From: Geosiphon pyriformis
Taxonomy: Eukaryota > Glomeromycota > Glomeromycetes > Archaeosporales > Geosiphonaceae
Assembly (NCBI GenBank): GCA_016748015.1
Contig: JAAOMT010000289.1
Coordinates: 693,639 to 757,638, forward strand
DNA length: 64,000 bases
Direction of reading: 5' to 3'
Within the stretch, counting starts at the first letter, position 1, and each line of letters starts with the position of its first letter. Below, in pieces: positions 2,943-50,001 of the stretch. The notes below the pieces were generated by a model, which was not told the origin of the DNA, did not search any database, and saw only the letters and a program-made list of their open reading frames with translations. A program made the translations under genes and the position numbers.

Positions 2943-3060
2943 AGGTTCATTGTCACCGCAGTTAGATCCTTTTGGATATCCAATATTAAAATAGACTGTA
3001 TTGGTTCATTATCACCGCAGTTAGATCCTTTGGATATCAAATATTAAAATAGACTGTATT
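2943..3060. repeat. Tandem duplication of a ~58-bp unit in the promoter
   Basis: Two head-to-tail copies (about 2943-3000 and 3002-3060) share the core GGTTCATT, TCACCGCAGTTAGATCC and AATATTAAAATAGACTGTA with three or four differences. They lie 95-210 bp upstream of the start codon of the REV1-CTD gene, so any factor site inside is doubled there. They could be upstream activating elements or a neutral slippage event. Confidence 0.8.
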
Positions 3061-3154: not shown

Positions 3155-4760
3155 ATGCCTCTTCGTAAGACAACTAATAAATTATTTTCCAGGAGGGTAT
3201 CGTCCAGTAATCGTTTGCTTCCGGGTCAAACAAGGCTTGACCAGTACTTTACTGGTCCTTCTAATACCTCGACACCTTATAGCAACTCGACAATCTTACA
3301 ACTACCCTTGACAACTTCACTTCAATTCAAACGAAAAACATTGGGGGCTGTATCTATAGTTCCAGAAGCTAAGCGAGCCAAAAAAGAAAATGAGTCCCGA
3401 CAATGGGCAAGGACCCCCGCGCAACTTGTCGGACCTTCCGGAAACTCAACCTCCACTCAACCGCAACTATCAACGCCACCCCAATCTAAACGACCAAGAT
3501 TGGAGGATCCACAGGAGAAAATAGTCAAAAAAGAAAACGAGGGGCAATGGGGAGGGGTTTTTAGTGACATTTTGGACCGAAAAAATAACTCTGCTGCCAC
3601 GCGCATTCCCTACACCCTTAAAAATGATAAGGGAAAAGCCAGGGAAGTTCCAACTAGATCCCCGACACCTAACACGTGTTTAAAAGATGTATTAATTGAT
3701 TTAAACGCTGGGGAACTCAGCGAGGAAAACGATCCCCAACAATGGGAAAAAACTTTTGAGGATTTCGTTGGCAGCTCCTCATCCTCCCATCCCCCACCTC
3801 AGCTTAATAATAAGCCAAGGTTTAAACTTCAAATTATTGATTCCGAAGCCAAACAATCTAATAAGGAAAATATGGTGTATCACGATATAGGAAACTTTAA
3901 CTACCATACTACAAGTCGGGTTTACTGTCATAATAAGCCCAAGGGAAAAAGTAGGACGGGTCTGAGTACCTTCCCCCTTTCACTTTTGGAGGATCAAACA
4001 ACCGAAGGATTCAAAAAAGAAAATGATGTGCAAAAATGGGCCAGAGTTTTTGAGAATTTTGCTACCCAACAGAATAAACATCGTTACATTAGTAGAATAC
4101 GAGTCAGGGACCCAAAAGGTCGAAGAAAATTTTCCTTCCCCTATGACAAACGTATCGACTTACCCAAAGGGCAGGGAACCGGTTACAATAGCTACCATCC
4201 TAACGTCCTGGAGAATGGAAAATTTGATAGAGAGGTTTTCAATTCGCTGCCGGAAGGTATATATTATATTTTATATAATTTTAGTCGATTAGCTAATGTT
4301 CATTCAATTTTAAGATCTTAAAACCTATATATCGAACGAATCTCGCCACTTCCTACGAAATAAGAAATACGAGGAAGATAAAAAGTTTTGGATGGATGTT
4401 CGGCTTAAGGCATGGAAAGAACGGACTCGCTATAAGAGACGTCGATTCCCGATCCCGAACATTAAGATTGAGCCAAAAAAGAGGCCGGTTCTCCAAAGCA
4501 TGACCACTGTTGAGGAGATTCGAGCTATTATCAGGGTATGGATCCGTGATAACCTGAATTCAGAAAACTTGGAAGAGCTACTCCGATTCTTACTAGAGGT
4601 TATAGCCGATAAGGAATTGGAAAAAGTTCAATTAATCATCCGTTACTTGCAAAGGATAACTGAAAACTTGGGTGATGAATGGAAGCAGGCAACTTACTAT
4701 ATCACAGAGAAGATCAATGATACCGTCATGGAACTCTATGACGGTTCACTTTTATTCTAA
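3155..4760 (+). CDS. PIP-box, KEN-repeat protein with UBM and REV1-type C-terminal domain
   Basis: Two exons, 3155-4256 and 4315-4760, give 515 aa; the 58-nt intron (gtatat...aag) restores frame with the downstream ORF. Seen in order: a consensus PCNA-interacting PIP box QTRLDQYF at residues 25-32; a long low-complexity linker with KEN at 77-79, 126-128, 237-239 and 288-290 and a variant EEN at 190-192, several followed by W then F-x2-F/I; a UBM-like motif DREVFNSLPEDLKTYI at about 358-373, completed only by splicing; a basic stretch with YKRRR; and a helical domain at about 430-515. That domain matches the REV1 C-terminal domain pattern (W-I, then DKELEKVQLIIRYLQRI, then a Y-x-GS-x-L end). 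UBM followed by CTD is how REV1 ends. No BRCT or polymerase core is present. Likely role (inference): a scaffold for translesion synthesis at ubiquitinated PCNA. A truncated REV1 paralogue is the alternative. The start is the first ATG after an in-frame stop near 3049. Confidence 0.82.
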
Positions 4761-5644: not shown

Positions 5645-8600
5645 TTAGTCCATATCCATTTTTGTCTCTCCCTCCTCCTCTTCTGAAGTTTCTTCAATTG
5701 GTTCGTGTAAATCAACCTCGAATTGAATGTCTTGATCAGAGCCCATATACGAGTCAGACATGAAATAAAGGGTAAGAGTCTGTCGGCCAATTCTTTCGGG
5801 GTAGGCGACCTCTAACTTTATATCTAGTTCCTTGTTCAAGGTGATCCGTTTTATACCCAAAAGTTTATTGTCCTCTGGATCACAAACAACTATCCACCAA
5901 CCTTCATCTTTCTTGTGTGGAAAGTAGGGCGCTATTACCGGGCCGATATCATTTTCTTCGTCCCGTTTCAAATGTACTTCAATATTTCCTTGAGCGCCAG
6001 CCAATAATTCATCCTCGTCCAACACTTTCACTGAAACCTCAATGTCTGGATAGCGGTTGGAAAATTTTGCGACTTCATTGAATTTTGAATCTTCCAGTTG
6101 AAGTATCTTTCGAAGTTCATCCTCATCCCTTTCCCCTAATTCAAATACGTTCTCAACCCCATGCTTTTTACAACGCTGAATAAGAGCATCGGTAAAGTAA
6201 GGGACCTGTTTTAACTCTGAATCCCGATCCCATACAGCTTGAACACACATCTGCGACAATTCCATCGCAGCTAGTGCGGGTTTTAGCCATCCTTCAGAAC
6301 TGATCACATCGACAATGGCTTGAAGCAAAGGAATGATTTTGCCTAATATCATGGTTTGATCTGATTGCAAATCTGGGGGCAATTGATTCCTAGAAAAGTG
6401 TGCTTGCAACAAAATGTTCGTCTTGACATGAGGTGAATTAAATTTAGGCGATTTGAGTTTAGCCGGGACTCTATCATAAATTGCTCTGAGGATCTTGTCT
6501 TCGTGATGGCGTATTGGGATAGATTCAAATTCCGCAGCTGAAGCAACAATTTCTAAAAGTCCACGAATTTTGGTCTTGGCATTTAGACTCATACTAAACA
6601 TTTCCACTGTTATATAGCTGACGTTATAATATGCGGCAATCATCCCTAGGTTAAGGCTTGTTACATCCATTTCATCTTCTAAGCTTATACATTTAGAAGC
6701 AGTCAGATCATTCACAGTTGTCTCAACCAATTCTGATAAATGATCGGACAAGTGTCTATGGTCCGATCCTTGCATGCCATAATAGTTGGGGTTTTCAACC
6801 ATTCGACGATACAAAAATGTCCAAGTGAGATAATCGACTGCATCTTGTTTGTTTTCAATTGTTCGTGTCATGATCTCTGCATTGAAATGATCATGTAAAA
6901 AATGATCCAAATGGGATTCCACTGGGAGGGCTTCGTATAAAAATTTCTTGTAAAATTCCTTTTTGATAGCTTGGCACATTAAAACACATCGCCCTGTATC
7001 ATCTTCTCGGGGGCGGCAGGCTCGACCCATCATTTGAAGAACGTCAGTGATTGGATAGTCAGCGTAACGATGTTCTTTGCCTTCGAAATATTGAGTTCCC
7101 ATTATTACAACCAGATGACAATTCAAATTTAAGCCCCAACATGTATCGCGTGATGCTACCAAAACTTGAATGGCTCCCGCTTGAAATAAACTTTGCACAA
7201 TTTCTTTATCGTTCGGGCTCAAAGCCTCATGATAGAAACCAACACCATGCTGCAAAGTTGCAAATAAAGCTTTATCATTAATAGCTTCCAAATGCTCTTG
7301 AATATCTTCAATATTTGCATGCAAGAACCGATTGGGAACACCATCGGCAGCGCTGAAAGTAAGTAAATCTAGTGCTGTCAGGCGACTTTGTTTACGAGAG
7401 GGGACAAAAACAATAGCCGGTCTCTCTAAGGAATATGCTGTAATAGAAACATAAACCGGTTTCGCCATGGCCATCATCAATGAAGCAAAATGAGGTATAT
7501 TATAATTTTGAATGTGTATTTCCAAGGGCACAGGTCGAACACTTGGATGGAAATTGAAAATATTTGCAGGCTTCGCGGCAATCCATTCGCCAAGATCTAG
7601 GGCATTGGCCAAAGAAGTACTTAAACAGACAATACGAATTTGGTTTGCTATTTGACCCGTCTTTTTTTTCTCTTCACCAATTTGCTCAGCTATATAACGC
7701 ATACGTGAGACCACAATTTCATATGTTGGCCCAACATCACTGCCAATCAAATGTATTTCGTCCGCAATGAATAAAGCGACTGTTTGAACATTTTTACGCT
7801 GTTTCCACCTTCTAGATATCAAATCCCATTGCGTAGGTGTAGCGAAGATTACATCACCGCCTTCCAAGAGTTTTAAGTCAGCGCTAAGTTCTCCTGTAAG
7901 AGCGACAATACTCTTACCACCTTGAATATTGCCAAACTTCTGTCGCCACTCTACAACTTGATGGTCGACTAACTCTTGAAACGGTGCAATATATACGCAA
8001 CGTCCTGGGTTTGGCTTAGACCATAAACGGAGCAAAGCGAATTCAGCACACACAGTTTTACCAGAGCCCGGAGGAGCTCCAACAAATACGTTGTCGTCAG
8101 AGTTATATAGGGCATTAAAAACTTGTGTTTGAATAGGATTAAACTTATCAATCCATGTATTATAGACTCTTTCAAATTCGCTATTGCGTAACGCGGTGAC
8201 AGGCAAAGGCTGCATGTCCAACAATTCTGTATGTGGTGGATACTTCTTGGGGAGAATTAGATGTCGGAAAGATACAGGTAATTTTGTCTCGCAATGCAAC
8301 CATCGGTCAGAAATGACGGAAATGAAATAATTTGGTGGTAAAGGTTCAAAAAGTGGTACGGTAAAGGTAATGATATGATCCTCTTCGGCATACTTTTTCT
8401 TAAGGATGAAAGAGTCGTGGTATAGAATCACATCGCCATCAACATCTTCAACCAAAACCCAAAATGCCTCACCCGTACCATGAATATTATCATCCCACTG
8501 GAAGTCAGGTGTTATGGTGAGTTCGACTTTGAGCAATGATCGTGTAATAGGTTGGACGAATGATTTCAGGGATAACTTTGGGAACTGATGAACAAGCTTA

Positions 8601-11600
8601 TAAATTAATTTGGCAAGATTTTGACCAACTAATTGAGACAGTTCAGGAACTCCTAAATCAAAGTATCTTTCCCATTCAAATTCTTTCTTTTCTATCTTCT
8701 TTATATGCTCAAATTGCAATCTTTTGAATTGACGAAAAGGTGTCATGGAAAGCCACATTTGCTTTTCAACCATCTTGCAAAGATCCAAAGCTCTTCGGGA
8801 AAGTTGAGACCACCCTCGTTTAAGGCAGATCTCAAACATAGCTCGAAGAAGCCGGCTAGCTGACTGCGTGACATATACCATATCTGATACAAGTGCGAAA
8901 CCTTCTAATTTAAGTTGAGATATGTAAGCCTGAAGTAATACATTAATTTTAGAGGTTGGTTCCTCGATTCCTTCCTTGACAGGAATAGGTACACGCTCCA
9001 AAAGTTTTGACAATTCGAGCTTCTCTTCTTCGCGTACAGGAATGTATTTGAATTCATCAGAGAGGGCAAAGACACGAAATAGCTCTATATGTCCCATCAT
9101 TGGTTTTAAGTGCTGATTGTAAGTCGCCATAGAATTGTGTGTTATATAATAGTGCGAGGCGATCCGTCCCAACTCAGTGACTTGGAATCGGCCAGTCTTT
9201 TTATCGTATTTTATTAAATTGGATTTATCAAGGAGCAATGCCGCAGAATGAATTAAATCTACCCGCTTCTGTTCAAGGTAAGGGTCCTCATCTAGGTAAT
9301 CTAATGTGATGCCATATAATGTGGGATTGCGTAACATTCGAACATAAAGGTATGTATAACCTAACCATTGTACGGCTTCATCACGATTACGCACTGTTCC
9401 CAAAACAATTTCAGCATTCAAATTATCTCCCAATTTACTGATAAACTGACTTTCGATTGGCAACTGTTGATTGAGTAAAGATAAATAATATTGAAGCTCA
9501 CTATGAGATGTTATGATTATACCTTCGCCAAATGTGTCGTACTGAGGGCGACCAGAGCGACCCAACATCTGGAGGACGTCTTCAGGGCTAAGTTCAACCC
9601 ATCGACCTTTTTCGGGTGAATAAATTTGCGTACCCTTGATAATAACGGTATGGGCAGGTAAATTAACACCCCAAGCTAAAGTTGCAGTAGATACAAGAAC
9701 TTGGATATGTTTATCAGAAAAAAGTCCCTCAACAAGCTCACGATCGGTACGATTCATTCCAGCATGATGAATTCCAAAACCATATGGCAATAAATCTTGA
9801 AGGTTAGGGTCTTTGGCCGTGGGCGCTTCAGTTTGTAAAATTTCACGACTTGCAGAATCTTCTCTTAAAAATTGACCAATCGTGTCCTTTTCCAAAGCCA
9901 TATCACGAATAGTTTTGGCTGTTTTGGCTGTTTCTTTACGTGAATGTACAAATATTAGTACTTGATTGTTCCCAGCCTGAGCCATTACTTTTTGATAGGC
10001 AACTTCATTCATAACTTGAAATCGTTTGATAGCTTTCTTTTCAGTAATGCCTATGTATTCCTGTTTTAAAGGGCATGGTCGGTAACTACTGTCAAAGTGA
10101 AACAAACCCTTATTGGGATCAACTCGCAAAAATGTGGCCACATCAGCGTAATTTGGTAAAGTAGCTGAAAGACCCACTAATCTTATCATCTCTTGCGTCT
10201 GCTCCATGTGACGAATTGTACGTGCTACTATACTTTCGATCACAGGGCCACGATCATCATGGAGTAAGTGAATTTCATCGAATATAATGAGCTTTACAAG
10301 ATTAGTATAGCTACGGTCGGTAGCTTTCCGTGTGATAACATCCCATTTTTCTGGGGTTGTGACAATAATTTGGGTCTCCGAAATTTGTTGTTTGGTGAGT
10401 TGCCTATCACCCGTTAGCTCCGAGACTTTGATACCAAAAGATGCCAGACGAGTTGAGAAATTACCCACCATTTCTTGTACTAGAGCTTTCATAGGCGCAA
10501 TATATACAATTTTGAAGTTATCTGTATTGATGAGCCCAGTTTCTTCGTTGCGATGTTTTGAAAGTTCATTAAGAATACAGAGCATAGCAACGTTTGTTTT
10601 ACCCGAGCCAGTTGGGGCACATAGCAACAAGTTATCATCGGCTCCAAAAGCAACAGGATATAATTTGCTTTGAATCCGATTGAGATTTTTTGCCCCCCTA
10701 AAAGCATCCTGTATCCATGCTGGGATTTCCTTGAGAGGAATGAGTTTTTCATCTTCCGCAAATGGTTTTGGTTTTGGTGGGGGAACATGTATTTCTTCAT
10801 ATCCTTTCATTGGTTTTTTAAATGACCCTTGAGGCAGTGTACAATTTTTATTAGACATCAAGTGGCCACCTTGCGTGAATGCCAAAGATTCGAGATCGAT
10901 TACTGCTTTGGGCATAGCTGACGCCCCCAAAGGAGCCTTGGCTTTAATCGTGATGGATGGACCATGCGTTATAGATGGCTGATCAATTTCCATAATATTT
11001 TCTACAACCCCTCTGCGGGCTGCGCCTTCTCCGCGACGGACTCTTTCACCTGCAAGTTCTTTTAATATCCACTCCAGACCTTTTTCCTTAATTTCATTTT
11101 CTATTTCTAAACGATGGGGGTCTTCATTTCCAACTCTGGCCAGTTTTGTGCACCAAACTATAACATCTCTATTTGCGGTTAAGGTTTTTACAAGGTCAAA
11201 TTTATCATAATCATATAAGTTCATCAAAGCATTTTCGCATTCACGAGGATCATAATCTGAAGCAAGAATGAGCATCGTGCTGGACGTTTTTTCTTGGGCA
11301 GTATGAGGGTCTGAATAATAATTGGAAACCAGGCGCTGTAGCCAAAAGGCATCAATGTCATGAGGTGAAATTTTTTTTTCAGACTGTATGTCAGTTAACT
11401 TCTTAGATGGGAAATATCCAGGTCCTTGTACTGTATTAAAACCTTCGGCCTCTTCGTCTGAAAAATACTCATCCCTTTCATCACCAATCTGGCCCAAGCC
11501 TAAGATACCAGTTGTTTCTGCTTCAACTCCACCCTCATCTTCCCCATCATCTTCTGATTCAACCTCATATGTTCCATATTCATCTTCATCCTCTTCTTCT

Positions 11601-12343
11601 TCATCAAAGACAACTGCCACACCTAGTTCATCATCGATATCACCGGCACGATCACCGTCTTTGTCAATTTCCATCTCATCATCAGCTCGGTAATCAGTTA
11701 ATTTTTTGACAAGATTGACCAGTTGAGCAAAACGATCCGAAGCGATTGGGCCAATAGCCACTTCAATCTGCTTCAATTTATCGAAATCTTTCAGAGTATC
11801 AGCTTTCAAGATTTTTAAAACATCATCCGCTGCACTGCGAACAACATCTTGACTTTGATCGCCTAGATTCTGATATACAAATGCGAGAATTAATTCATAG
11901 GCTTCACGTGTTTCTTTTGTTCTTGGCCGATACGAAAGACTCTCCACATCTTCTGTGGCCGTCAACACGTTCGAATAGCCATATGCCTTTTTAATGTCTC
12001 TTTGAAGCAAATTTCAAGCAAACAATAGTTATTTAATAGGTTTAAAAAAGTGAGTAACATATTTTTCTCAAAATCAAACCTACGTTTCTTCTTTTCGCCT
12101 TCGCTTTTTTTCTTCTGCCTCCTCAGCTTTACGTGGTTTCTTCTTCTTCGCCTCTAGATCCTTCACACTACTTCTCTGTGCTCGGGTACCAAAGTCTTTA
12201 GGGTTAATCTTTCCCCACAAAGATTCTGGCTCACCCGAAGGTTCATGATCTCGGCGTGGTAACTCGGATCTATTAGCTTGAAGTACGAGATTCGAGTTTG
12301 CGGTGTACTGATACTGATTGCCACGGGCAATTTGTTCAGCCAT
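5645..12343 (-). CDS. BRR2: Pre-mRNA-splicing helicase BRR2 (U5 snRNP 200 kDa)
   Basis: Ski2-like RNA helicase of the U5 snRNP that unwinds U4/U6 during spliceosome activation. Two exons, 12343-12084 and 11999-5645, give 2204 aa, close to the 2.1-2.2 k of yeast and human BRR2. The 84-nt intron joins the N-terminal exon ([13 protein letters not shown]) to the main exon. An acidic patch lies near residues 215-250. The N-cassette has APTGSGKT (about 548), DEIH (about 660), SATLPNY and GRSGRPQYD. The C-cassette has APPGSGKT (about 1393), DEIHLIG (about 1499) and the degenerate motif [12 protein letters not shown], as expected for the weakly active second cassette. Each cassette is followed by a winged-helix and Sec63 unit. 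The tail is acidic. The 6.35-kb intron-free main exon is unusual beside the heavily split neighbours. The frame is intact throughout. Confidence 0.98.
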
Positions 12344-17729: not shown

Positions 17730-20029
17730 TTGAGTGTAAGTATGGTTTTTTGATAATCTTATTTCGAAAAATAGTTATAAATAAAATTTAGCAATTATAA
17801 ATTTATCTAATTAATTAATTTATGAAAGTGATTTTTTATGAAATTGTATAATTTTTAATGTCACAATTGTAATATTTTATATTATTATTTATTTTGATAA
17901 TTAATTTGATTTGATTCTTAAATAATATTATCTTTGTTTTTGCAATTATTGTTTTTTACTTTTAAGGTTATAATTAAGCAACTATAAATATAAATTATGC
18001 ATTTTTAACATATAACTAGCAATTTAGATTTATGTTAAAAAACATTATATAAAATTAACCAAATCTTAACTGTGGTGTTAATTTTACAAATGTAGATAAT
18101 TAAAACATATTAAAAAATATACTTAATTTATTCTTCTTCTTAAAATAGCTTTATTAATCTAATTAAAAAATGTTATTTTTAATTCTATTCATAAATACTT
18201 AATTTTTTGAAAGCTTATTTATTTATTTTCTATAGCTTAACAATAAAAATCCAGATTTTGTTTTTGTACTTAATTAATAATAAATAAACGATTTTTTTTA
18301 TTTTTATTATAATTATTTTAATGTATTTATAAGCTTTTAAAGCTTTTTAAAACCAATTTTTTAACACAAATTTCGTAGCTAATATTTTATAAAATTACTT
18401 TAATACAGTTAATACATCAATATTTTTACAAAAAAATAATTTAAATAAACTTTTTAAAATATTAAATATGTTACATTAAATATTTTTTATTTTATTGTAA
18501 AAACTTATTATAAAATATTTTTATAATGTATATACAAAAACCAATAATTAAATTTACATAAAAATATGTATTTAAATATTAAATTAAAATAATAATTTTA
18601 TTTCATATTATTAATAAGTTTTTGTATATTGCTTAATTTTTTATTATTATTAAGATTTAATAAGCATGGCCCAATTACTATCTAAAAATTAGGAACAAAC
18701 TAAGTGTTTTAAAACTAAATATAATTCACATGTTTTTTATATATAACCAGCTATTCAAGCCAATTTAGACTATATTACATTGATATAACAAAAGTAAACT
18801 TATCTAATGCCAATATTTTTTGAATTATGTCAAACAATTTGATATTACAAAAGACCAATTCAACCAGCTATTCAGCTATTTCAAGAAATCAGTTTTAATA
18901 CTATTAGATTTATGTATTCAAAGAGACATTAAGTTAGAAAATATATTATTATCAATGCCAGCTAGAAGATTCGAATTATTAGACTTGTTAATATTATCTA
19001 TATAGCACTTTTTTTTAATAAAATTATCTTTTTTTTTAATTTATTAACAACTTTGTTAAAAAAATTCAGATATATCATAAGTTTATTAATCTTAAAGTTA
19101 AAAATATTGCTTAAAACCAAATTACTCTTAATAAATTGTTCAAATACAGCAATCAGAAAAACAATAGGCTTAACAATTAACTCAATCAATACAGAAAGTT
19201 TGGCCAAATCAGATTTCAAAGAAATCAATTAAAAAAACATTAAAGAATTACCAACAATTACAAAAAAAAGAACAAAAGTTATTAGAAATAGAAACTTAAA
19301 AGAGTTCAAAAAAGCAGAAGTTTTGACATAAAATTTAGCACTTACAAAATGTGATATAAACATCTTAAAAACCTTGGAACTTTTAAAAAGAAAAAGTAAA
19401 AATATTTTACAATTTATAGTCAAATGGCCTATTTTTTAATACTTAAAACAATACTAACAATCAAAAGTTTCTTATTAAATACAACACTTTTTTAGTGTAT
19501 TAGTCTTAACTATTGTAGTATTCAAATTAGTTTAAGATTTAAATATAACCAGAACAAAATAAAAACAGTAACCAAAATCAAAAAGTAAAAAATAAAACAA
19601 GTTTAACTATTAACTTAAGAGATCATATTACTAATTTTAAAATTAGTACAGCCAAAAAAAAGGTTAATCAACTTGGTTTTAAACTTATTATAAGACAAAA
19701 TAGTTTTATTTTGATTAACCAAAAGAAGGATTTTAATACTATTCTTGTTTATTAACACTAATCAATGATTCAAAACAAATACAACATATCTAGCTCTTTA
19801 AAATGAACAACAATATATTACTAAACACTAGCAAATTTCAGCACAACTTACCAAAAACACTAAGTGTTGTCTTAATATTAACAGCAAACATATTTAAAGA
19901 CATATCATGTAAGACAATAATAGCAAAAAAGAAATCAAACTCAGAAACCACCAAAAATTTGGCAATTTTAAGAGTAGTCAGATAAACAAAGCTTGTGAAC
20001 TCAACCAAAAATACAGCTTTTAAAAACTT

Positions 20030-20900
20030 TTAAAAAGCAAATTTTACACAAATAAGCTTTATATTGTTTTTTAATATTGACTTAATATTTAGAAAACTAT
20101 GTACAAACTAAAAAACAGCTTTAATATAAGCCAATTTAATCTTAAAAATAATATTAAATACCAAAATAAAAATCATTTATCTAGTAAATCTTTGATGATT
20201 AAAAATAATTTTCTAAATATCACTAATGACAGCATTAAAAATTAGCAGAAAAAATAAATTGGTTTTTATTTATTTAATCCAGTTTTTAAGAACAGATAAT
20301 CTAACAAAAAACTGTTATTTTACTTTTAAAATTGGTAATAATTTATTAGAAGAAACCATATTTGGCAGTACAATTAGTAGTTAATCTTGGCCAATCTTAA
20401 ATAATATATTGGATAATATAATGAAAATCTTATCTAAGATCTTATTAAGAATCATAATAAGATTTAGTATAACAATAGCAGAAATAAATAGCTGCTTTTA
20501 CTTTTTGGAATTCTTGGTCTTTTTGACTATTTTCAAAAAAAAAGTATTAATAATACCAAATATAGCAACAATAATTGAGAAAACCAGCTTGTTAATTGGT
20601 CTATTATTAAAAACTTTTAAGCTCTTGGTAAAAATAAAAACAACACTAAAACTAATCTAAGTATGTCTTTTTGAAAAAACTTTAACTGGTAAAAAACCAG
20701 TCAAAAATAAAAAAGATGTTTTAACAGCCACCAAAAACAGCTTTTTACTATTACTAACTAAAAAAAAGACTTCTAAAATGTTTTATCTAACTGTTTTTAC
20801 AACAGAAAAAACTTTTTTTGTTGAAACTTTGTAAAATACCAAAAAAAAAGTATTAGTTACAGCTTTTTTATTCTTTGTTTTAGTTATAATTATAAAATTA
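20030..20900. repeat. Degenerate repeat block, copy 1
   Basis: Shares order and wording with 22600-23330: both contain an AAAATTTACACAAA-like start, a TTTTATTT-TAATCC block, TCTAAGATCTTA/TTAAGATTTTA, TTTGGT/CTTTTTGACTATT, TTGTTAATTGGTCT and AAAACAACACTAAAACTAA in the same order. Probably internal sequence of one element family, present twice in the same orientation. Confidence 0.65.
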
Positions 20901-21680
20901 AGAAAACAAAGAGTTTATTTATAAAAAATTTTTTTTTTAATTATTTAACAAAAATATGTTTTGCTTAATAAATTAAATTATATTTATTAATATAAATTAT
21001 AATAACAAATATAAATATAAAAAAATAAATAAAATTAATTAATTTTTTTTGTTGATTTTTTAGTCACAATAAAAGTAAATAATTTTTGTAAAAAATAGTT
21101 TTTTTATTCTCTATTCTTTTTTTTCTTATATTTTTTAATTGTTTTTTTTAATATACTTCTGTTTATAACTATAACATTAGTAAATTTTTTTGCTAATAAG
21201 TCTGGTTCTGATATAACTGAATTAGAAATTCACTTAAGCACCAAAAAAAAGTGAGTAAAAAATATTTATTCTTATAGTATGTTTTATAAAGAACCAAAAA
21301 AATTTATTGCTAATAATAATATAGTCGATTTATTTATTGGTTTTTTAAGTCTAGAAAATATTAGTAGTTTTAATACAAAATCTGTGGTGTTTTAAGAAGC
21401 AAAGTTAATAATAAAGTTAGTAATATTAGTAGTCTGTCAAATATAAAGAATATAAAAATATATTTACCAAGAAAACTAGTTATATAAATTTATATACTTT
21501 AGTAATTAACAAGAATATAAATAATATTATGTTAAAAAAAACTTGTATTTAGACATACATATTAAGTTAATTACTGAAAACTCTTTCATTTAATAATTTA
21601 AATGATAATAATAATATTTTAGTATTTTTGTCTTCTAAATTTGTTGGCTTTAAACAGTTGCTATTAGTCAAATTACATGT

Positions 21681-22562
21681 TGTTACAAGTAATTATTTGA
21701 GGTGTTGAAACAAATAACAAACTCATAACTTGATACTTAATAGCTGAAAATGCTAATAATTTCTGAAGATTTTTGAGTCTAAAAGTTTTTGTTGAGTTTT
21801 TTGTATAATAAACAAAGATTTAATTGATGGTTTTTTCTATAATTTTTTTTTTAGCATAATAATCAGTTTAATCTAACAGTTATGTTTTTCTGATAAGCTA
21901 TCTTTAAATTTTTATTCTTATTTCCAGGTCTTTTATCAGACTATCTTTGATATTAAATACTTAGTGCTTAATTTCTTTAATTAATTAGTAAACAACAAAA
22001 AAATAAAACCAAAGAAAATAAAAAAAAATAAAAAAAATCAAGAAAAAAAAATAAAAAAATTAGTATTCTATCAATAGCTGTAATTAAAAGTTATTGTTTT
22101 AATATAGTTAAGTATTGAATTTTATTAACATAGAATATTGATAATAAAAAAAATAATTAATATTTTTAATCAAATAACAATAACATAAATTGGATAATAA
22201 TTAAATATTTTTATTGATATTAATAGATTTCTATTTTAAGTTATAAAAAAAATTTTTTTAAAGAGAAGAGTATTATTGGTTTGAACTCTATTAAATTTTA
22301 AATACTTTTCTGTTTTTAATATTCTCACTATATATACATAATTTATGTTATATAAGATTTTTAGAAATTTTATAATTCCTTAAAAAAATTTTGAAATTCT
22401 GAAATCCTACAATTTTCCAAGAGAAATTCTGTAATTCTAAAATCCTACAATTCTGGAATCCTGTAATTCTTTAAGACAAATCTTGGAATTTCTATTTTAC
22501 TACATTTATTTCTGATTGGCTATTTTACCTATTATTATAATTTTTAATTTTTACAAGTAATA
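21681..22562 (-). repeat. Degenerate LTR (B-type subfamily)
   Basis: It begins TGTTACAAGTAATTATTTG and can be followed colinearly against the B LTRs: AACAAACTCATAACTTG, AAACAAAGATTTAAT, TATTGATAA, TATATATACATAAT (22329-22342), a set of GAAATTCTGxAATCCT repeats, and the end TCTGATTGGCTA...AGTAATA. Nearly all differences are C-to-T or G-to-A. The orientation is the same as element B. No matching target duplication was found. Confidence 0.75.
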
Positions 22563-22599
22563 CCACCAATAAAAACTTTAATAATAGCAACTAAGAAAG

Positions 22600-23330
22600 C
22601 CTTAAAAATAAAATTTACACAAAATAACTTAATATTATTTCTAAAAATTAATTTGAATTTAATAAAGCCAAACAACAAATAAAACAGAAAATTAACTAAA
22701 ACCAACTTGATTTTAAAATAAAAACAAATACTAAAATAAAAATTATTTACTCAAAAAATTTTTAATAATTAAAAATTGTTTTTCAAGTACTATTAAAAAC
22801 AGTATCAAAAAACAAAAAAAAAAAGATTGATTCAGTTTTTATTTGATTAGTTTAATCCTTAAAATTAGGTAACTTAATAAGTTGTTAAAAAAATCTTATT
22901 TAAGATTTTATCTAAAACTATAAAAAAGTTTGATATAACAATAATAAATACAAGTAACTACTACTGTTTTTTTGATTTTTTGGCCTTTTTGGCTATTTGT
23001 AAAAAAATAGTAATGATATTAATAATAATAACAGAAAAAATTAACTTGTTAATTAGTCTGTTGTTGAATATTTTTGGACTTTTGAAGAAAATAAAAACAA
23101 CATTAAAACTAACTTAAATGTATTTTTTAAAAAAAACTTTAATTGAAAAAAAATTACCAGCCAAAGATAAAAAAAATGTTTTAAAAGCTGCGAAAAACAG
23201 CTTTTCACTATTAATATTTAAGAAAAATATTGTTAGAACATTCTGTTTAATTGTTTTAACAATAAAAAAAATAACTCTTAAAACTTTTTTACTCTTTGTT
23301 TTAGATGTAGTCATAAAATAAATAAATAAA
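22600..23330. repeat. Degenerate repeat block, copy 2
   Basis: Second copy of the block at 20030-20900, same orientation, on the other side of the ruined LTR. The two have diverged heavily, and copy 2 is poorer in C and G. Confidence 0.65.
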
Positions 23331-24866
23331 AAGTTTATAAAACAATTTAAAATTTAATTAGTTTATAAATTAAAAAGATTTAAATTTTAATTATAAAATA
23401 ATTTATTATTAAAAAAAACTAATTTATATAAATTTACGTTATTTTTTAATAAATTAATTTTTTATCTGTATTAACAAAATTAAAACAAATCTTATAAAAT
23501 TTTTAAATCATAAATTACATAATATAAAGATTTTTTTTAATAATATTAATAATATATTTTTATTTAATTTAATATTTGTTATAATAATTTAAAATATTCA
23601 ATAAAATTTTTATTTAATAAGTATTTAAAACATTTTGGTTATTTAAAAACAATTTAATAATACTATTAAACAAAACAATATTTAAAAATAAAATAATTGC
23701 TTAAAGTTTTATTAAAATTAAAGCTTTTAACAAATCAAATTAAATTATGTTTTGGTCTAACTTGAATTTAAATTAGTTAAAAAATAACAAGTTTTTTTTT
23801 TTTAAAATCTTAAACAAAAAAGTGCTTTTATATAGTTTTTCTTAAAAAATTTGTTTTTAAAAATTAATTTGGTGAGTTTTTGGATTTCTTTAAATTTAAT
23901 TAGTAATTATAAAAAACATATAAATGCTTAACTTTAAATTTTAATCTTGTTTTATTAAATTAATGAATTTTTTAATATTAAATAATAATGTAAGTGTTTA
24001 ATGTAGTTTTAATTAATTTGTATAACTGGTTATATATAGCAAATATATAAAACATGTTTTTTGTATAATAATTTTTTATTGAGTAATAGTTGAGCCACAC
24101 TTTGTTAAAGCATAATAAAAAAACAAAAAAACAACACAAAATAATTATTTTCAAGTTTTAAATTTATTATATGAATATGTACTATTATTTTTTATTTATT
24201 TATTTAATTAACGAGTGAGGCCCAAACGCCATTATTTTAATGTGTAATATTTTTTAATAAATTTATAATTTGTTGATTCATGGTTAACTTTAATTTTGTC
24301 AATGAAACTGTTTTACTATGGATAATATTTAATTCGAAATGATAAAAATATATAGATGCGTAATAAGTTTCTTGGATATTTCAGAGTATAAAAATTGGAA
24401 CATGAATTTATCTAAACGTGGATTTGGTCAATAAATTAATATAAACAACTGAAAGGTTAAAAGGTTGGAATTACAGATCCCAACAATCTTATACTTTAAT
24501 TTTTGTGAGTTGCGTGTGTTGTAAGCTATATCTATTGTTTATTTTATAAGCTTTGATTATACAGATCACAAGAATCATGCTAAAAATATTTGGAAAGAAA
24601 CTTTCGCAAATTCTTTTAAAAATATAAGTTATCCACAAAAATATTTCCGAAAATACAAATAAAGCTCTTCCCGTTTAGAATCTCAGCTTTTCAATTTCAG
24701 AAAAAATTCTTTCAAGAAAAATTTATTTCTACACGAATACATAGACATCTAAATAACGATACGGTGTGCTTTCAAAGAATTGATTTTTGCTGCTCATTAA
24801 TTTAGAATTGTTTGGAATATAATATATTTTTATTGTATAATTAATTCATCTCCCCACAGGGTAATA

Positions 24867-29911: not shown

Positions 29912-32960
<3,049 letters not shown>

Positions 32961-35900
32961 AATCAACAATAAATGAATTGAAATACTATCCTTTAAATAC
33001 TAACAGCGAACATTCTGTAGCATTAGCAGATAGCTGCCTTTAGTACCTCATTTGGAAGATTACAAATTACCGGTTTTTTTAAAAGAATGATTCCATTATT
33101 TGCGTAAAATGTTTTTAAAAGTATTGCCCCAATCCATAATGAGGCTTAAATTTGCCAGTTTTTTAAAATTGGCAAGTTAATAAATAAAATTTTACCAACT
33201 TGAATCTTGAAATAATGTATCAATAAAAGTTGATCTTAATTTTAATGTGTTAAAATTTAGCAATGTTCAAGTTCGATTTTTAATTATTTTTTTAAATAAA
33301 TATTGATAATTGGTTTTAATTAGTTATATATAATTAAATAAAAATAAGTTTCTTCTACATCTTAAATTTCCTGAAAAAGTTATTTTTGAAGAATAAGTTT
33401 TTTCTTTGTTATAATCTTTCAATATTCAGTTCAATATTTTTATACTTTTTTTGTTCAAATACAAGGCTGTTGTCAAGTTTACTGTTGTTATAGATGTTAA
33501 TAAAAGTAATAAAAATTTGGACTTTGATTTTGCTGGTAAAATTTTTTCTTTACAAAAGAAATAAAAAAAGATTTTTTTTCTCAAGCTTGATAACAATAGT
33601 GCTGGCTTTTTTTCCAGTAAGTAATTTAAGTAATATTAATACTAACAATACAACAAAAACAGAAAGTATTAATATGAATAAACAATATTTAATAAAAAAA
33701 ACTATTTTTAACAATAATAATAGTAGCAACATAAAAACAAAGAATATAAGTACTATTTTAAAAACATCTAAAGTTAAAACTTATATGATAATTACAAAGT
33801 TTTTGGGCAAAATTAATTTTAATAATATTGGTAAAAATTTTAATGTTTTTTTTGTTTTTTTTTAAGATCAAAATAAATATATTTGTTAAAAAATTTTTTA
33901 TCTTAAATATTAATCTTTTAGTTATTATTAGTGTATTATTTTAAGATAAATTAAAAGCAATTAAAAATTTGTTTTTAAATATAAATAGTTTTAAAAAATA
34001 TTTATTTTTTTAAAGTTTAATATTATTATTTGTGTTATTTTTATATTTAAATTTAAAATAATAAAAGCTGTAAATATAATAAATAACAATAATATAATAG
34101 TAAATATAATATTAAAAAACTAATAAATAATTATACATATTAAGTTGTAATATTTAAAAATATTTTTGTAAAAATATTAATAAAAATTATATATATTATA
34201 TTATTTAATTTTAAAAATATTAAGTTAATTAAAATACAATTGATAAAACTATAACAAAAAACATTAATTAAATTTAATAATTAAAACCAAGTTAATTTTT
34301 TAGCATCTAAATAGTTTATTTTAATTGAAAAAAATACAATTTAAATAATTAAAACCAATATTAACAAATTATAAAATTTAAAAAATGCTTATAAGATTTT
34401 GTTTTATACTTTATCTATAAATATAATTATATATAATCTGTAAAAAATTTTGAAATTTATTGGTAAAAAAACTTGTATAATTAATTATTATTTAGTTTTT
34501 TATGCTTATACAAAATATTTTATTGTTTATTTCAAATTAAAAATATATTTTGGCAAATTATAAGTTATTTTTATAAATTATTAAATATTTTGTTGATTTT
34601 TTAATATTTTAATAAATTTTTAAATATTATATAGTATAAAATATTATATAATTTAAAATATTATATAATCTAATTATATTTTTGTATTATATAAATTAAG
34701 TTATTAATTAGATAATAATATTTAATAATTTGATAAAATAATATATAATAAATTAAAACAATAATATATAATAATTAATAATAAAAATTATAATTTTATG
34801 TTAATTAATAATTCAAAGTTTTATTAATAATAATAATTTTAAATAAACAGTTTTTTTTATTTAATATTTACTTTTTTATAAGATATTATTAAATATAAAT
34901 TACAGTTAAGTTTTGTTTCTAAAAATCTATATTATAAATAAAATATATAATTAAAAAAAACTTAAAATTAAAAACTAATCTGCTAAAAATTTTTCTAAAT
35001 AAAACTTTATATTTTTCTTTTTTATATAGCTTAAAATCTTTAACCAAATATATTTAAAAATAAAATTATGTTAATATTGGCTTTTTTAAATGTTTTTAAT
35101 ATTCTTAAATATTTGTTTAATTAATAGATTTTAAATTTACAAATTATTAATTAAATTTTAAAAAATTTATTATAATATTCTGTTAAGTTATTATATATAA
35201 ATTTTTAATTTATTGAAAATTAACAACAACTTTAAATTAGTTTTCAAAAAACAATTTGTACTTAGACTTTTTATAATCTTGGTTATCAGTAATTCTAGCT
35301 TAAAAATTTTTGATAATTGTTTGTTCTTTGGATATTTGTATTTACTAAACCAATATTTAGAAAAAACTTTATTAGCAGAATCTACTACTATCTTTTTTAA
35401 AATTTTTTATATTATATTTAGATTTTTACAGTTTTTTGTATTATTGAATTTTGCTATATTTAATAAAAACTTTTTTAAAAAACACTTCTTAAATTATAAC
35501 TACTTAGCAGCATTACATCTTTAATTTTAAATTTTTATTTATTTTTGTTGGCTTCTTTGTGTATACTATTCAGTCAGACATCTAAAAAACTATTCAAACC
35601 AATTAAAACCAAAACTGTCTTATAATTAGTATTAAAAAAGTCAAAAACAGAATTAATTCTATAACCAGCAACAGTAAACAATAAATTTTTATTAACAAAA
35701 ATGCAATTTATGACTTTTTTGACTTCTCTTAAGTTGCTCTAAGTAAAGACTTTAATTAATAAATATCTGTTAAATGAATTAACCAAACTTAAATCCAAAC
35801 AAAACTTGAAACTCACATTTTTTTTAGATTTGTTTTTATTGAAATTCCTACCCAAAACCATAAAAGTGCTAGAATTAACTGCTTTAGCAATAAGAAAGTT

Positions 35901-40771: not shown

Positions 40772-40773
40772 TT

Positions 40774-40785
40774 TGGTGCTTCCTG
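40774..40785 (+). promoter_or_regulatory. Primer-binding site of element D
   Basis: TGGTGCTTCCTG, two bases after the LTR. See element C site for comparison. Confidence 0.75.
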
Positions 40786-40789
40786 TGAG

Positions 40790-42600
40790 ATATAATCCTA
40801 TAAAGAACAACACCAAAAACAATTATCTAAAAGTGGCAGAATCAGAAATCATAGGAACAAATCATTTAGGATTCGCCAAATTCTTATTTCAACAGTACAG
40901 CCAACAATTAGACTTAACCAACAACTATTATCTAACAAAATCTGCTTTCAACTTTTATGTTAGCAAAAAAATCACAAACTGCCTAAGAGAAACAGTTGAC
41001 ATTGAATCAGCAAGAAAAAACTTCTATACAGAATTATTTCAACATACTAGCTTACCAAGAAACTACAGTTTTGTACCAATTATTAGAAAAATCAATCAAA
41101 CTATTGAAAGATATACACAACAACAATTTTTCATCACCTATGCAGATAAAGACAAAGGAAGATTGCAAACTCCAACAGTAACACCAAAACAAATACAACC
41201 ATCCAATTGGAAAAAAACCCAAGTTGAATTACCTACCAATCTATTATATCATTATATGCCTGGAAGTGCCATCAACATCTCATCAACAGATGCATCTACA
41301 TCAAATGCAACATCAATTTTTGGATACTTCCCATTTCAAAGTAAACAAAGAAAAGCAGAGTTATTGAACCATATGGTGATTACTTTGAAGAATTTAAATC
41401 ATGATTACCAACACCATCAAGATTCCGACCACCACTACCCCAACCAGATTTTGGAAACACAAGTCCCTAGGAGATTACAGAATCAGAAGAAGAAAAAGAA
41501 GAAAAAAAATTTGAGGATTAAGAATTTACTTATCAGAACCCGATCCCAGAAAACTCAGACATTAAAACCCTGAACTTTTAGACTCAGCAAAATCTAAATT
41601 TAGAAAATTTGGAAATTGAAACTCCAAATTTTCAAATGCAGCACGATCAGAACAATTGAAACCCCAATATTAATAATCAACAACACTTACCTCCAGTAAT
41701 TATAATCAATCCACCCCCAGCTCCACCAATCGACGAACAGCAACAACAGCCACCATAACAACAATTCCAACTAAACTTAAATCCAATGGCCTACGCTCCA
41801 ATAGCAAAACTCGAGAAATTCACTGGTAAAGAAGATGACATCCAAGTATGACTTAATGACATAAAAAAAGCCATAGCAGCTAATGAATAGAATGATGCCA
41901 GAGCCATACAAGCCATCCCATATTTTCTCCAGAATACTGCCAATTCATAGTACCAAAGCCTGGTTAACAAACTCCAAGATTTTAATGCATTCAAAATTAA
42001 GTTCTTAAAATACTTCAGCAACAATAACAGCATTAACAGACTAGCAAACACATTTACTACCATCAAACAAGAAGAAAATAAAGCAGTCACTACTTACTTA
42101 GAATACTGCTACAGGAATCTGCACCAGATTCAAGCTATTGATGCCAATTATTTCACAGTGGCCCAAATCCTAAATCAGTTTATTTGCGGATTATACAGTA
42201 GTATCCTGCAACATGTACATCCAATGCATTCTGTCAATCTGCAAGCAGCCATTACAAATGCCAGAGATTTTGAAGCCGCTAAACTCGAAGCTAATCATGT
42301 TCAAGCTGTTAATCTAATAATGAATGGATCATCTGAATTGAATTCCAAATTGAAACAATTTAGTGATTTCATCAATCAGAAATTAGAAGGATACTTAGCT
42401 GACAATTGTGCAATCTATTAACTACTACAAAAATGCAATAATTCTGGAAATGCGAATTGTTTTCAGAATCAGTTACATCCATCATTGTCGACCAATTAAC
42501 AGTGACAACAGAAAACATGTGTTTGCCACTATTGTGGTAAACAAGGACATCTACAAATTGATTGCCACTATTGCTTAAATAACCAACAATTGGAAAATCA
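40790..42600 (+). pseudogene. Element D gag
   Basis: The N-terminal part is open for 266 codons in the frame that starts near 40773 (conserved block AESEIIGTNHLGFAKFLFQQ, shared with B). It becomes Gln/Pro-rich, then the capsid-type domain begins at about 41788 (MAYAPIAKLEKFTGKEDD) and runs to 42420 (NQFICGLYSSILQHVHP). A CCHC knuckle, CHYCGKQGHLQIDC, lies at 42517-42558. At least half a dozen stops interrupt it, several at positions where B has Gln or Trp. Confidence 0.85.
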
Positions 42601-43079
42601 ATATCGAAACTCCGATTGCCAGTTTTGAATTCCGAATAATCTACCAACTCAGAGCCATACTATCAGAATTACATATCTATAACGCAGCAGCCACTTTATC
42701 AACCACCAGTATATCAAGCACCAATCTATCAACTAACAACACTGACAATTTATCAGCCACGGTCACAACCCATTTATCAGTCACAGCCTCAGGTAATCTA
42801 TCAGTCCCAACAAATTCAAACACTACCACAGAACTTATCTCAAAATGGAACCCAAAGGCCGAGATTGATCCAACAAAACTGGAAATCATCAATGGTAGTT
42901 TACCAACCAATCCCCAGTTCTTCCACACAACCAGCAGGATCTCGACAATGTAATTCGAACACTGAGTACACCCAAAACCTGAATTCCCAGAACTATTTAA
43001 GTCTCCTAATTACTCCAAAAGACACCCAACGCAATAATCCAGAGACCAACCAACAATCAACACTTACCAGCAATATTCC

Positions 43080-44190
43080 ATTAGCTACCATTACCAAGAA
43101 CAAATCACTGGATGCCATCTTCCCATTTGAACTCAAAAAACCATTGACCACGCCACTATTTAGTGAGCCACTCTGGAAAAAAAACTTATTATGGCCATGT
43201 ATACTGATGCCAAAGTTGATGGCCATTTCATCAAACTGATCCTAGACAGTGAATTAGCTGGCAGCATAATTACAAAACAACTTATGGACCAATTAGGTTG
43301 TTGAGTTGATTGTGCCACCAGCGCTTGAATTATAACTGCTGATGGAGCAACAAAAACTCCCATTGGTGAGATTGATGACTTCTCCATTGAAATCAACAGT
43401 ATCATGATTCTAATCAAAGTACTGGTTATGGAAGCCACTTAATACCAAGCACTCGTTGGTAATAATTGACTATCCAAAACCAATGCGTTGCTTGATTGGA
43501 ATACACAGCAGCTTCAAATTAGCCAAAACGGCTGACACACATGCGTACCAGCCATGTGTGGCCATTTTAAGACCATCAATTCGACAACACCACTTATTAA
43601 ATTCGAGGAAGAGGAGAAAAAACCTACCTGGGAAGCCTATCAAGTTTCTTGGGCTGACACCAAACACAATAAGCTGCTGCCAGTACCTTTGTGAGATGAC
43701 AACAACAAAAAAAAGCAGAGCAAAGAACTTACCTGGAAAGCCAATCAAGCCTAGGAAACTGACAACAACTAGGAAGAACAAATAAATTGGAAATAGAAAG
43801 AAGACAAAAAGAAAGAAAGAAAGAGGAAGGAAGAAAAACCAACAACTGACAGCAATTCCACTTATACTTCTTATACTATACTCCACCAATCCACTTATTG
43901 CCACCCAAAACTGGTATGCATCAATTGCGGCAAGAAATTGTCATCAATAGACACTTGTTGTGGTGATGATGAGGAGTACACTTTGACAACAAAATCCTAC
44001 TGCTGCCCATGTATCATTGAATGCTTTGAAAGCCCAAAATGAGTTGGAAAATGTGACAATAAACCATGCTTGGCTTGTGGAGAAACTCTTCTGAATGAAG
44101 AAATATGGAACAACATTTCTGGGCAAGGAGGAACATGCGATGAATTGTGTTAATACATGATTTTCATAAATGACTGAGTGAAAAAAAAAA
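43080..44190 (+). pseudogene. Element D protease and Cys-rich domain
   Basis: Retropepsin-like frame: MYTDAKVDGHFIKLILDS with the active-site Asp kept but the following Gly changed (LDSE), then AGSIITKQLMDQLG and, later, VGNNWLSKTNALLDW. After a Lys-rich linker comes a cysteine-rich domain at 43917-44190: CINC, TCCG, CCPC, CLAC and CDELC, matching element B position by position. Stops at several sites. The Cys-rich domain is not a known part of gypsy Pol; it may bind zinc and nucleic acid. Confidence 0.8.
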
Positions 44191-45330
44191 TGCCCATAAA
44201 CATTGTCTGGAGACAAACCATTAAATGTCTGGATGGATGTCCACATGATGATGATAAAATCTGGCAAATGACACTTGCCAAAATCAAAGAAGCGACACCA
44301 GAAGAGATAAAAACAATTAAAAATAACCCACCTAAACCTATAGAACTCAACTGGAACCCAGAACCAGTCATAAATCTCCTAGATCCAGAACAATTCTACA
44401 AACATTACCAAGAGCTAGCACCTATGAGAGAAGAGCAGAAGCAAATGCTTAGAAGAAATAAATACAAGACTATATAACTATTGTTTAATTCCCTGTAACT
44501 TTCAATACTGTAATGAGTGTAACCTCATTTACAATCCACCACCATGCATGATCTACACAATTCCAAAAGAAAACAAACCAATCAGCAGCTGCACATCAGA
44601 ATTGGAATCAGTTTTCAATTCCAATTCAAACTCTGACAACAATAACAACAAAAACACTGGTTTCAGCTCCATGCAATATGGCAATAAAAATATTAACTAT
44701 TCAAACTCTGATTCAAATCCCAAAATATACATGGTGCTTTCTGATCTCTCTAAGGAGCAGAAACTTAAATGGTATAGTAATTATAATAAAGGTATCATGC
44801 CAGAACATGCACATGATACTGATGCAGAGTTTGATCTAAGATATCCAGGAAAAGAAGCCATCAAATTAGAACCACATTTGCACACTTGCATTGATCTGAA
44901 AATAGCACTGAAAATTCCAGTAACAACAATGGTTCAGTTAACATTTAGGAGTAGTCTAGCAAAAAAGAGAATCAACATTAGAGGAGAAATAATTGATACA
45001 GAATACATAGGAAATATTATTGTTATGCTACAAAATGATTCAGAAAAAGCATATACCATAGATCCAAATAAAAAGATAGCACAGGCAATATTTCTACCTC
45101 TGGTGAAAATAGCTTAACTAGTGTCAGTAGAAAACAGGGAAAAATTAGAGATTATTGCTAAAAGGATACAGGAATTCAGATCAACGAGTAAAATAGATAT
45201 ACCAATTAATATGACAGAGGAAAAAATTGTTGACAAAGAAGAAATTATCTCAACTCATTAAACAATTTCTATTCTGCCATATGACCAGTATATGTTAGCC
45301 ATAAAAAGGGAAGTAAAGAATCAAGCTTAA
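44190..45330 (+). pseudogene. Element D dUTPase region
   Basis: A small Cys cluster (CNECNLIYNPP) opens a 189-codon uninterrupted frame (44548-45117). After an Asn/Ser-rich spacer come the five dUTPase motifs: AEFDLRYPGK, then RSSLAKK, then the catalytic-type IDTEYIGNI, then IAQAIFLPL. The trimeric dUTPase fold hydrolyses dUTP and limits uracil in DNA; here it would act in reverse transcription. The usual C-terminal Gly-rich motif 5 is not evident. Confidence 0.85.
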
Positions 45331-46990
45331 TTGTTTGAAGCAGAAGCCACCATTTGTGAATCAGGGAAGATTGAACTTACCAATCTCTACATATCAGCCA
45401 AAAGCCCCAAAAACATCAAAATTTCCATCTATAATACAACTGGAAAGGTCATCAAAATACCAAAGAGAACCATCATTGGATATTTAACCACCAAAGTTGA
45501 GGATCAACCACCAAACCACATTCCAGATTTTCCATAGCTTTGCAGATATGTGAATATTACATTACAAACCATCTATGAAAGAAGTGAATGTTATCTGCTC
45601 CAACCAAAACAATTGAAACAGATAAACATGGGGAATCTAGATCCACTTCAACAGATGCAACTCAAAATATTACTCAACAATTTCAATGACATCTTTGCTA
45701 GCAAAAATGAATTTGGCCGAACCAACATTACCCAGCATTAAATCAAGACTGAAGATGTAATGTCAATTAAACAAAGAGCATACAGAATACCACCAGCTAG
45801 CCATGAGATCATTTGTCAAGAAATCAACTGGATGCTTAACAATGGGCTAATTCAGCCATCAATGAGTCCATGGTTGTCACCAGTAGTACTAGTCCATAAG
45901 AAGAATAGAAAAATCTATTTTTGTGTAGATTACCAAAAACTAAATAGAGTAACTAAAAGTGATAACTACCCAACTCCAAAGATCCAGGAATTATTTAACA
46001 CTTTTGGTGGAAATAAATGGTTCTTAACATTAGATCTAGATAGTAGATACTGGCAAGTACCCATGGATCCAGCCAACAAAGAAAAAACAGCATTTACCAC
46101 AAGAGAAAGAAATTTTGAGTTTGAAGTCATGCCATTTGGCTTGATAAATACTTCAGCCATATTCCAATGGCTTATGAAAATTGTTTATACCAGACTACTA
46201 TAGAAATTAGTAGTCATATACTTAGATAACACCAATGTGTTCTCAAAAACATTTGATGATCATCTGCATCATCTTCAACAAGTATTCGAAAGATTAAGAA
46301 GAGCTTGATTGAAACTAAATACAACCAAATGTTTCTTTGAAAAAACTGAACTCAAGTTTTTGGGACATGTAGTGAGCAAAAATGGAATCAAAACAGATCC
46401 AGACAAGATCAAAATAGTTAAGAACTTTCTAGTACCAGCCAACTTGCCAAAACTAAAGACATTTTTGGGATTTGCAGGCTACTATTGCTGCTTTATCAAG
46501 GATTTTTCTAAACTAGCTCAGCCACTTCACTATCTACAAACCAAAAATGTGAAGTATAAATGGACTGAAGCTCAACAAAAAGTATTTGACACATTAAAAA
46601 GAAAGCTTATTCAAGCTTCAGTATTGATGTATCCAAATCACAACAAACCATTCATTATTACTACTGATGCATCAGGTCAAGTATTGGGAGCAGTACTATT
46701 ACAGAAAAGACCAGATGGAAGAGAATATTCAATAGCTTACACCAGTAAAAGCTTAAGTCCAGCTGAGAAGAACTATAGAACTCCAGCACTAAAACACTTA
46801 GTTATCTATTGGGCTGTCATCAAATGGAAAGAATACTTGAACCAAAAGTTTAAAGTGTACACTGATCACAAAGGATTGACTTCAATCCAGAAACAAGAAT
46901 TTACAAATGATCATCATGCCAGATGAAAAATAGAACTTTCACCATTTAATTATATAGTACATAAAAAGAGAAAAGACAATGGAAATGCCA
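45331..46990 (+). pseudogene. Element D reverse transcriptase and RNase H
   Basis: The run-in is QINMGNLDPLQQMQLKI. RT blocks: AYRIPPASHEIICQEINWML, SPWLSPVVLVHKK, FCVDYQKLNRVTK, LDLDSRYWQVPM and FEVMPFGLINTSAIFQWLM. The catalytic YxDD box reads YLDNTN, with the second Asp lost by GAT-to-AAT. Then TKCFFEKTELKFLGHVVS and RNase H with ITTDASGQVLGAVL and YTDHKGL. Three or more stops interrupt it (for example 46201, at an expected Trp). Confidence 0.93.
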
Positions 46991-47039
46991 ACAGATTGTC
47001 ACAAATGAGACAAATCTAAAAACATTTCAACCCAAAAAT

Positions 47040-49997: not shown

Positions 49998-50001
49998 CAG
50001 T

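Follow-up and report, generated by a model that had tools for sequence, protein, structure and literature searches.

The DNA analysed here, a window of 64,000 nucleotides (the whole stretch; positions 693639-757638 of contig G000:C377), belongs to the 124.7-Mb, 406-contig assembly of the glomeromycotan fungus Geosiphon pyriformis and harbours a two-exon gene for a protein that ends like the translesion synthesis (TLS) protein REV1. The 515-residue product opens with a PCNA-interacting protein (PIP) box, continues through a repeat-built linker and a ubiquitin-binding motif (UBM)-like element, and closes with a REV1 C-terminal domain (CTD), whereas neither the BRCT nor the Y-family polymerase domain of REV1 was found. 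The intron between the two exons holds a CTAAT branch-like motif, and its removal gives a protein identical over all 515 residues to the public Geosiphon hypothetical protein G9A89_020801, so that an independent annotation, itself a gene prediction and not RNA, chose the same splice. The splice had first been proposed from the sequence alone (hereafter, the sequence-only reading), and the identity bears it out; the suspicion raised there, that the second exon might belong to another gene, is answered in that the public annotation (prediction) joins the same two exons. Both exons are open frames; 5' of the ATG, a stop at 3050 closes the reading frame. With 0.43 (exon 1) and 0.40 (exon 2), the GC content of the exons lies above that of the intron (0.17) and of the two measured flanks (0.30), and the rise ends at the exon borders. 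The assembly, searched with the whole protein, returned the gene's own two exons only (3 candidates scored). Directly upstream of the gene, a stretch of ~57 bp (ggttcattrtcaccgcagttagatcc...aatattaaaatagactgtat) stands twice in tandem (window 2944-3059), likely in the promoter.

The protein ends in a genuine REV1 CTD. The Pfam profile REV1_C matches the whole protein at 31.3 bits (E 3e-7; cut-off 26.5) and the domain alone at 37.3 bits (E 4e-9), compared to 29.5 bits for the own domain of yeast REV1. The best phmmer match to REV1 CTDs of the PDB has an E of ~6e-7, and the local alignment with the human REV1 CTD scores 107, the best among 2000 shuffles reaching 57. Modelled from the single sequence, with no alignment, the domain folds into a four-helix bundle, for which the top six Foldseek matches are all REV1 CTDs. 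Profile and fold thus agree with the CTD pattern that had been noticed initially. In terms of the binding residues of human REV1 that are named in the excerpted text of PMC8468184, the sequence alignment places the REV7 cage intact (human-Geosiphon L1203-L469, Y1244-Y509 and L1248-L513). The pocket for the REV1-interacting region (RIR) retains L1159 (L427) and W1175 (W443), with Ile in place of L1171 and L1172 and Leu in place of V1190. As far as the residues of that excerpt allow, the alignment points to better conservation on the REV7 face than on the RIR face of the CTD.

The remaining motifs are of graded strength. The PIP box, seen already in the sequence-only reading, fits the consensus Q-x-x-h-x-x-a-a; however, the pattern also turns up somewhere in 990 of 20,000 shuffled versions of the protein, so the motif by itself is weak and suggestive only. 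The UBM-like motif DREVFNSLPEDLKTYISN exists only after splicing, as had been claimed, its stretch EVFNSLPE/DLKTYI crossing the junction. Three of four REV1 UBM templates land on the same site (scores reached by 7, 8 and 1 of 2000 shuffles), and the fourth on an overlapping site, shifted C-terminally, with a score reached by 51 of 2000. Among the seven ubiquitin contacts of human UBM2 given in the excerpt of PMC8468184 (D1016, V1019, F1020, L1023, P1024, L1027, E1030), the first six are kept as D358, V361, F362, L365, P366 and L369, and the seventh is a tyrosine (Y372). We consider the element a probable, but not a proven, ubiquitin-binding motif.

Between these motifs lies a linker that had been understood as standing in place of BRCT and polymerase. 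Neither domain is indeed in the protein, but the description has to be amended, for the linker is built from five degenerate repeats that had gone unmentioned. The repeats, with borders placed by eye, measure 47-65 residues each and share a core of about KKENExxQWxxxFxxF, which repeats 2, 3 and 5 show most plainly. Summed over all pairs of repeats, the alignment score is 387, compared to 210 +/- 13 in shuffles, none of 1000 of which reaches 387. In the DNA they are partly visible as direct repeats of 33-34 nt, present in four and three copies. The protein contains four KEN tripeptides, a number reached by 1 of 20,000 shuffles, although the copies are not four independent events because they are located inside the repeat. 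The KEN box is a degron of the anaphase-promoting complex/cyclosome (APC/C) that is recognised by Cdh1. Since REV1 levels in fission yeast are under cell-cycle control via the proteasome and the Skp1-cullin-F-box (SCF) ligase, according to PMC4493104, timed destruction through KEN may be a reasonable idea; KEN and APC are absent from the main text of that source. Separately, the W-x3-F-x2-F part of the linker repeats (window 3359-4150), with the W in repeats 1, 2, 3 and 5 and the F pattern in 2, 3 and 5, resembles a helical binding motif and may bind a partner.

Table 1. Coordinates of the REV1-type gene and its encoded elements in the window (residue numbers refer to the spliced protein).
Feature	Window position	Strand	Basis
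Exon 1: codons 1-367 plus base 1 of codon 368	3155..4256	+	Open reading frame (ORF), GC, public protein identity
PIP box QTRLDQYF, residues 25-32 (putative PCNA tether)	3227..3250	+	Pattern Q..[LIMV]..[FYHW][FYHW]
Linker of five degenerate repeats, residues 69-332	3359..4150	+	Pairwise scores vs shuffles; DNA direct repeats
KEN 77-79, repeat 1	3383..3391	+	Tripeptide pattern
KEN 126-128, repeat 2	3530..3538	+	Tripeptide pattern
KEN 237-239, repeat 4	3863..3871	+	Tripeptide pattern
KEN 288-290, repeat 5	4016..4024	+	Tripeptide pattern
UBM-like motif, residues 358-375, split by intron	4226..4337	+	Pfam (sub-threshold), template shuffles, contact positions
Phase-1 GT-AG intron, 58 nt	4257..4314	+	Same splice in public annotation (prediction, not RNA)
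Exon 2: bases 2-3 of codon 368 through residue 515, plus stop	4315..4760	+	Spliced ORF, public protein identity
REV1 CTD, residues 427-515, including the N-terminal hairpin leucine (Pfam match 435-513)	4491..4757	+	Pfam, phmmer, alignment, model

Evidence on the missing parts of REV1 was collected in the protein, the window and the assembly. At E up to 10, Pfam lists 3 families for the protein, and IMS, IMS_C and BRCT are not among them; tblastn with yeast REV1 and the human REV1 core returned no REV1 core exon in the window, the best of 3 chance matches having an E of 2.7. The REV1_C profile matches the assembly once only, at this gene. The IMS profile matches it at two loci, Pol kappa and Pol eta, and IMS_C at the same two. 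In the assembly, the yeast REV1 query finds no REV1 polymerase, only Pol kappa and one retroelement-like match, while the human REV1 core and an 80-residue palm piece of it each find Pol kappa only. The N-terminus of human REV1 gives three matches (CHS5, Pol kappa and one at E 4.5 taken as chance) and no REV1 BRCT, CHS5 being the sole BRCT-like match to this query in the genome. The REV1 signature patterns SRLHHxSxWK and ARxxGIxNGM, allowed zero mismatches, have 0 matches each in the assembly. The sensitivity of such searches is supported by the human REV7 query, which reaches its orthologue through a single 37-residue exon, and by the REV1 queries reaching the more distant Pol kappa.

Because polymerase core and BRCT were looked for and not found, the protein is classed as a REV1 variant, not as a REV1 polymerase, and we regard the absence of a REV1 polymerase from Geosiphon as likely but not proven. 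The full-length REV1 that was to be sought in the same genome did not appear with the IMS, IMS_C, REV1 protein and signature searches. A mis-assembled end of an ordinary REV1, also considered at the outset, can be set aside because the gene starts ~697 kb into an 824-kb contig and no REV1 polymerase exon was found in the window by tblastn or in the assembly by the searches above. The original proposal of a polymerase-free adaptor with a REV1 CTD therefore holds as regards the lacking polymerase; it appears not to hold as regards an adaptor beside a full REV1, for the protein seems to be the only REV1-type protein of the genome. Overall, the observation of the sequence-only reading is confirmed and its interpretation supported, with binding and function being what we infer from it.

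The expected partners are encoded in the genome. Human REV7, the partner of the REV1 CTD, matches one 37-residue exon at E 0.01, and once its exons had been joined by eye, the gene product matched human REV7 (MAD2B) at 4e-35, with MAD2A far behind at 1.7e-9. The orthologue, at L014 (G000:C318), consists of many short exons and has a C-terminal tail past the human end. Both IMS/IMS_C loci were identified by reading. One is Pol kappa, with a 709-residue frame; the second, Pol eta, is interrupted by introns and equipped with a ubiquitin-binding zinc (UBZ)-like finger. The C-terminal exon of Pol eta (L015 3414-4283, G000:C175) encodes this finger together with three FF motifs (AKFFLKS, LQFFGRS, SYFFSNS), which may be RIR or PIP motifs.

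The protein collection yielded no match besides the protein itself, whether searched with the full protein (1 of 8000 candidates scored, E up to 1e-3), with residues 355-515 (1 of 200, E up to 10) or with the CTD in the range of 448-1424 residues (1 of 63, E up to 10). Distant REV1s are unlikely to surface in these searches because shared 5-residue words are required; the result speaks to close relatives within the searched length ranges, not to absence from other fungi. Literature searches, mainly of open-access papers, listed no title or abstract opening that describes a polymerase-free REV1. A survey of 183 fungal proteomes lists PF16727 beside REV1 in the excerpted PMC11061109, which reports REV1 expressed in a Mortierellomycotina species as well as in Mucor lusitanicus and Umbelopsis isabellina, gives no REV1 in its condition-specific transcriptomes, and leaves Geosiphon unmentioned in its main text. 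Were REV1 counted by the REV1_C domain alone, the Geosiphon protein would be scored as an ordinary REV1.

Based on the collective evidence, the protein is probably understood best as the REV1 of Geosiphon reduced to a scaffold: BRCT and Y-family polymerase would be gone, the linker, one UBM-like motif and the CTD left, and the PIP box would serve as PCNA tether. More tentative, and in our judgement a shade short of an even chance, is the wider proposal that Geosiphon lost REV1 polymerase and BRCT entirely and that its REV1/Pol zeta TLS is run by a polymerase-free scaffold, the clamp contact having moved from BRCT to PIP box and several KEN degrons in the repeat linker timing the protein over the cell cycle. 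As the available text of PMC11276120 has it, Rev1 is without a PIP box and binds PCNA via the BRCT, the Rev1 CTD coordinates the TLS polymerases, and Rev1 catalysis is dispensable for TLS. In the mechanism we propose, the N-terminal PIP box would hold the protein on PCNA in place of the BRCT, and the UBM would favour ubiquitylated PCNA. One face of the CTD would bind REV7 of Pol zeta, and the other an inserter polymerase through RIR motifs of FF type. This inserter is more likely to be Pol eta than Pol kappa because the FF motifs of Pol eta are C-terminal and none is so placed in Pol kappa. The scaffold would then let the extender take over the primer end from the inserter while copying no DNA itself, and its destruction may be timed within the cell cycle by the KEN boxes of the linker repeats.

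A number of points weigh against this interpretation, whose mechanism is weakest at the RIR face and the UBM. Judged by the partial text on human REV1, the RIR pocket has Asn for D1186, Glu for Q1189, Val for E1174 and a gap at I1179; on the REV7 face, Gly and Leu replace S1246 and K1249. The three FF motifs of Pol eta may be PIP boxes, and 568 of 20,000 shuffles reach that number; Pol kappa is unsupported as RIR client, its only FF (AFFENE, residue 131 of 709) being N-terminal. RIR motifs are missing from yeast TLS proteins in the account of the PMC11276120 excerpt, and the inserter half of the mechanism may therefore not hold for Geosiphon. Compared to two UBMs in human REV1 there is a single UBM-like candidate here, and the claim of a UBM falls short in Pfam (11.6 bits on a 60-residue piece, cut-off 23.3; unlisted for the whole protein), although the yeast REV1 UBM stretch, a genuine UBM, is likewise under the cut-off (18.1 vs 23.3 bits). 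None of the Foldseek matches of the CTD model reaches E 0.001. Constraint on the protein cannot be measured because it comes from one species and homologues were not found. As to the searches, the absence of a REV1 polymerase is based on one assembly; both signature patterns derive from two REV1s only, were applied mismatch-free and without a positive control; the assembly searches score best candidates only, with one to three candidates passing the first look in each REV1 protein search; the HORMA profile missed the Geosiphon REV7 and the REV1 queries missed Pol eta.

These limits of the searches feed the strongest alternative, namely that an ordinary REV1 is also present, missing from the assembly or overlooked, and that the protein is an additional adaptor or a competitor sharing the CTD. 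Best-candidate scoring can pass over intron-rich genes, which match weakly, as seen from the single exon and the missed HORMA match of REV7, and the 406 contigs of the assembly add to this. Yet a second REV1_C would be expected and only one was found; such a REV1 would have stayed unseen with IMS, IMS_C, yeast REV1, human core, palm piece, human N-terminus and two signature patterns, even though Pol kappa is reached by the four REV1 protein queries, and the intron-split Pol eta by the IMS and IMS_C profiles. We hold a hidden REV1 to be unlikely. Less probable again is recruitment of the CTD to another task of REV7, be it in a REV7-dependent complex outside TLS or as a competitor preventing Pol zeta from reaching the clamp. 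REV7 serves complexes besides Pol zeta, such as shieldin (PMC7181697, as excerpted), and the RIR pocket is altered at D1186, Q1189 and E1174 with the REV7 cage kept; the PIP box and UBM-like motif, however, point to PCNA at stalled forks, and Pol eta with its UBZ-like finger and FF motifs is present. A decaying, functionless REV1 remnant or chance gene model, suggested by the lack of homologues in the protein-collection searches and by a gene model that is a prediction, is very improbable given open exons with raised GC up to their borders, a CTD that fits its family better than yeast REV1's own and was modelled as a four-helix bundle without alignment, and a public annotation carrying the same model.

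Elsewhere in the window, an uninterrupted frame of 2121 residues (5645-12010), by reading the spliceosomal helicase Brr2, stands tail to tail with the REV1-type gene. A frame at 32395-32976 starts, again by reading, with a resemblance to the C-terminal part of mitochondrial Hsp70. Two related retroelement-like stretches, read at 40773-57365, lie in opposite orientation (frames 46309-46926 + and 54697-55314 -; 44548-45117 + and 56562-57365 -), and the AT skew flips sign near 52 kb, within this region. GC is very low at 20001-24000 (0.167; adjoining 4-kb blocks 0.274 and 0.332).

The reduction to a scaffold, if true, has importance for the question of REV1 as enzyme or as scaffold, debated so far from engineered mutants. 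Drosophila, for example, becomes sensitive to methyl methanesulfonate (MMS) when the CTD is lost, and needs the transferase in the absence of REV3, as stated in the excerpted PMC11309488. A soil fungus with a scaffold-only REV1 would represent a natural separation-of-function REV1, otherwise obtained by engineering, and would provide evolution's own answer on the scaffold role, with a PCNA contact that can be rewired from BRCT to PIP box. Mutation spectra at abasic sites would be expected to shift in Geosiphon, without the dC insertion of REV1.

Among known systems, REV1 of human, mouse and yeast is the closest, with a C-terminal REV1_C whose REV7 cage and, in part, RIR pocket are kept, as far as the excerpted contact residues tell. 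Unlike REV1, the Geosiphon protein has a PIP box, reported as lacking in REV1 (PMC11276120, in the text available). The order of UBM and then CTD, pointed out in the sequence-only reading as that of REV1, recurs with the UBM-like motif before the CTD, and REV7 is in the same genome. REV1 combines a Y-family deoxycytidyl transferase with a TLS scaffold; the Geosiphon protein is without BRCT and IMS polymerase, and one of REV1 type was not found in the assembly. It is, moreover, 515 residues long with a repeat-built linker, and has one UBM-like motif instead of two. MSH6, UNG2 and DNA ligase I exemplify PCNA-tethered factors with an N-terminal PIP box, and the Geosiphon protein shares with this type the position of the PIP box and, after it, a long linker that is probably disordered, but its C-terminal module is a REV1 CTD, not an enzyme or a mismatch-recognition core. 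Finally, like POLD3/Pol32, the accessory subunit of Pol delta and Pol zeta, it would be a non-enzymatic, PCNA-binding TLS adaptor linked to the REV1 CTD. The difference is that human POLD3 carries an RIR that binds the CTD (PMC8468184, as excerpted), whereas the Geosiphon protein carries the CTD itself.
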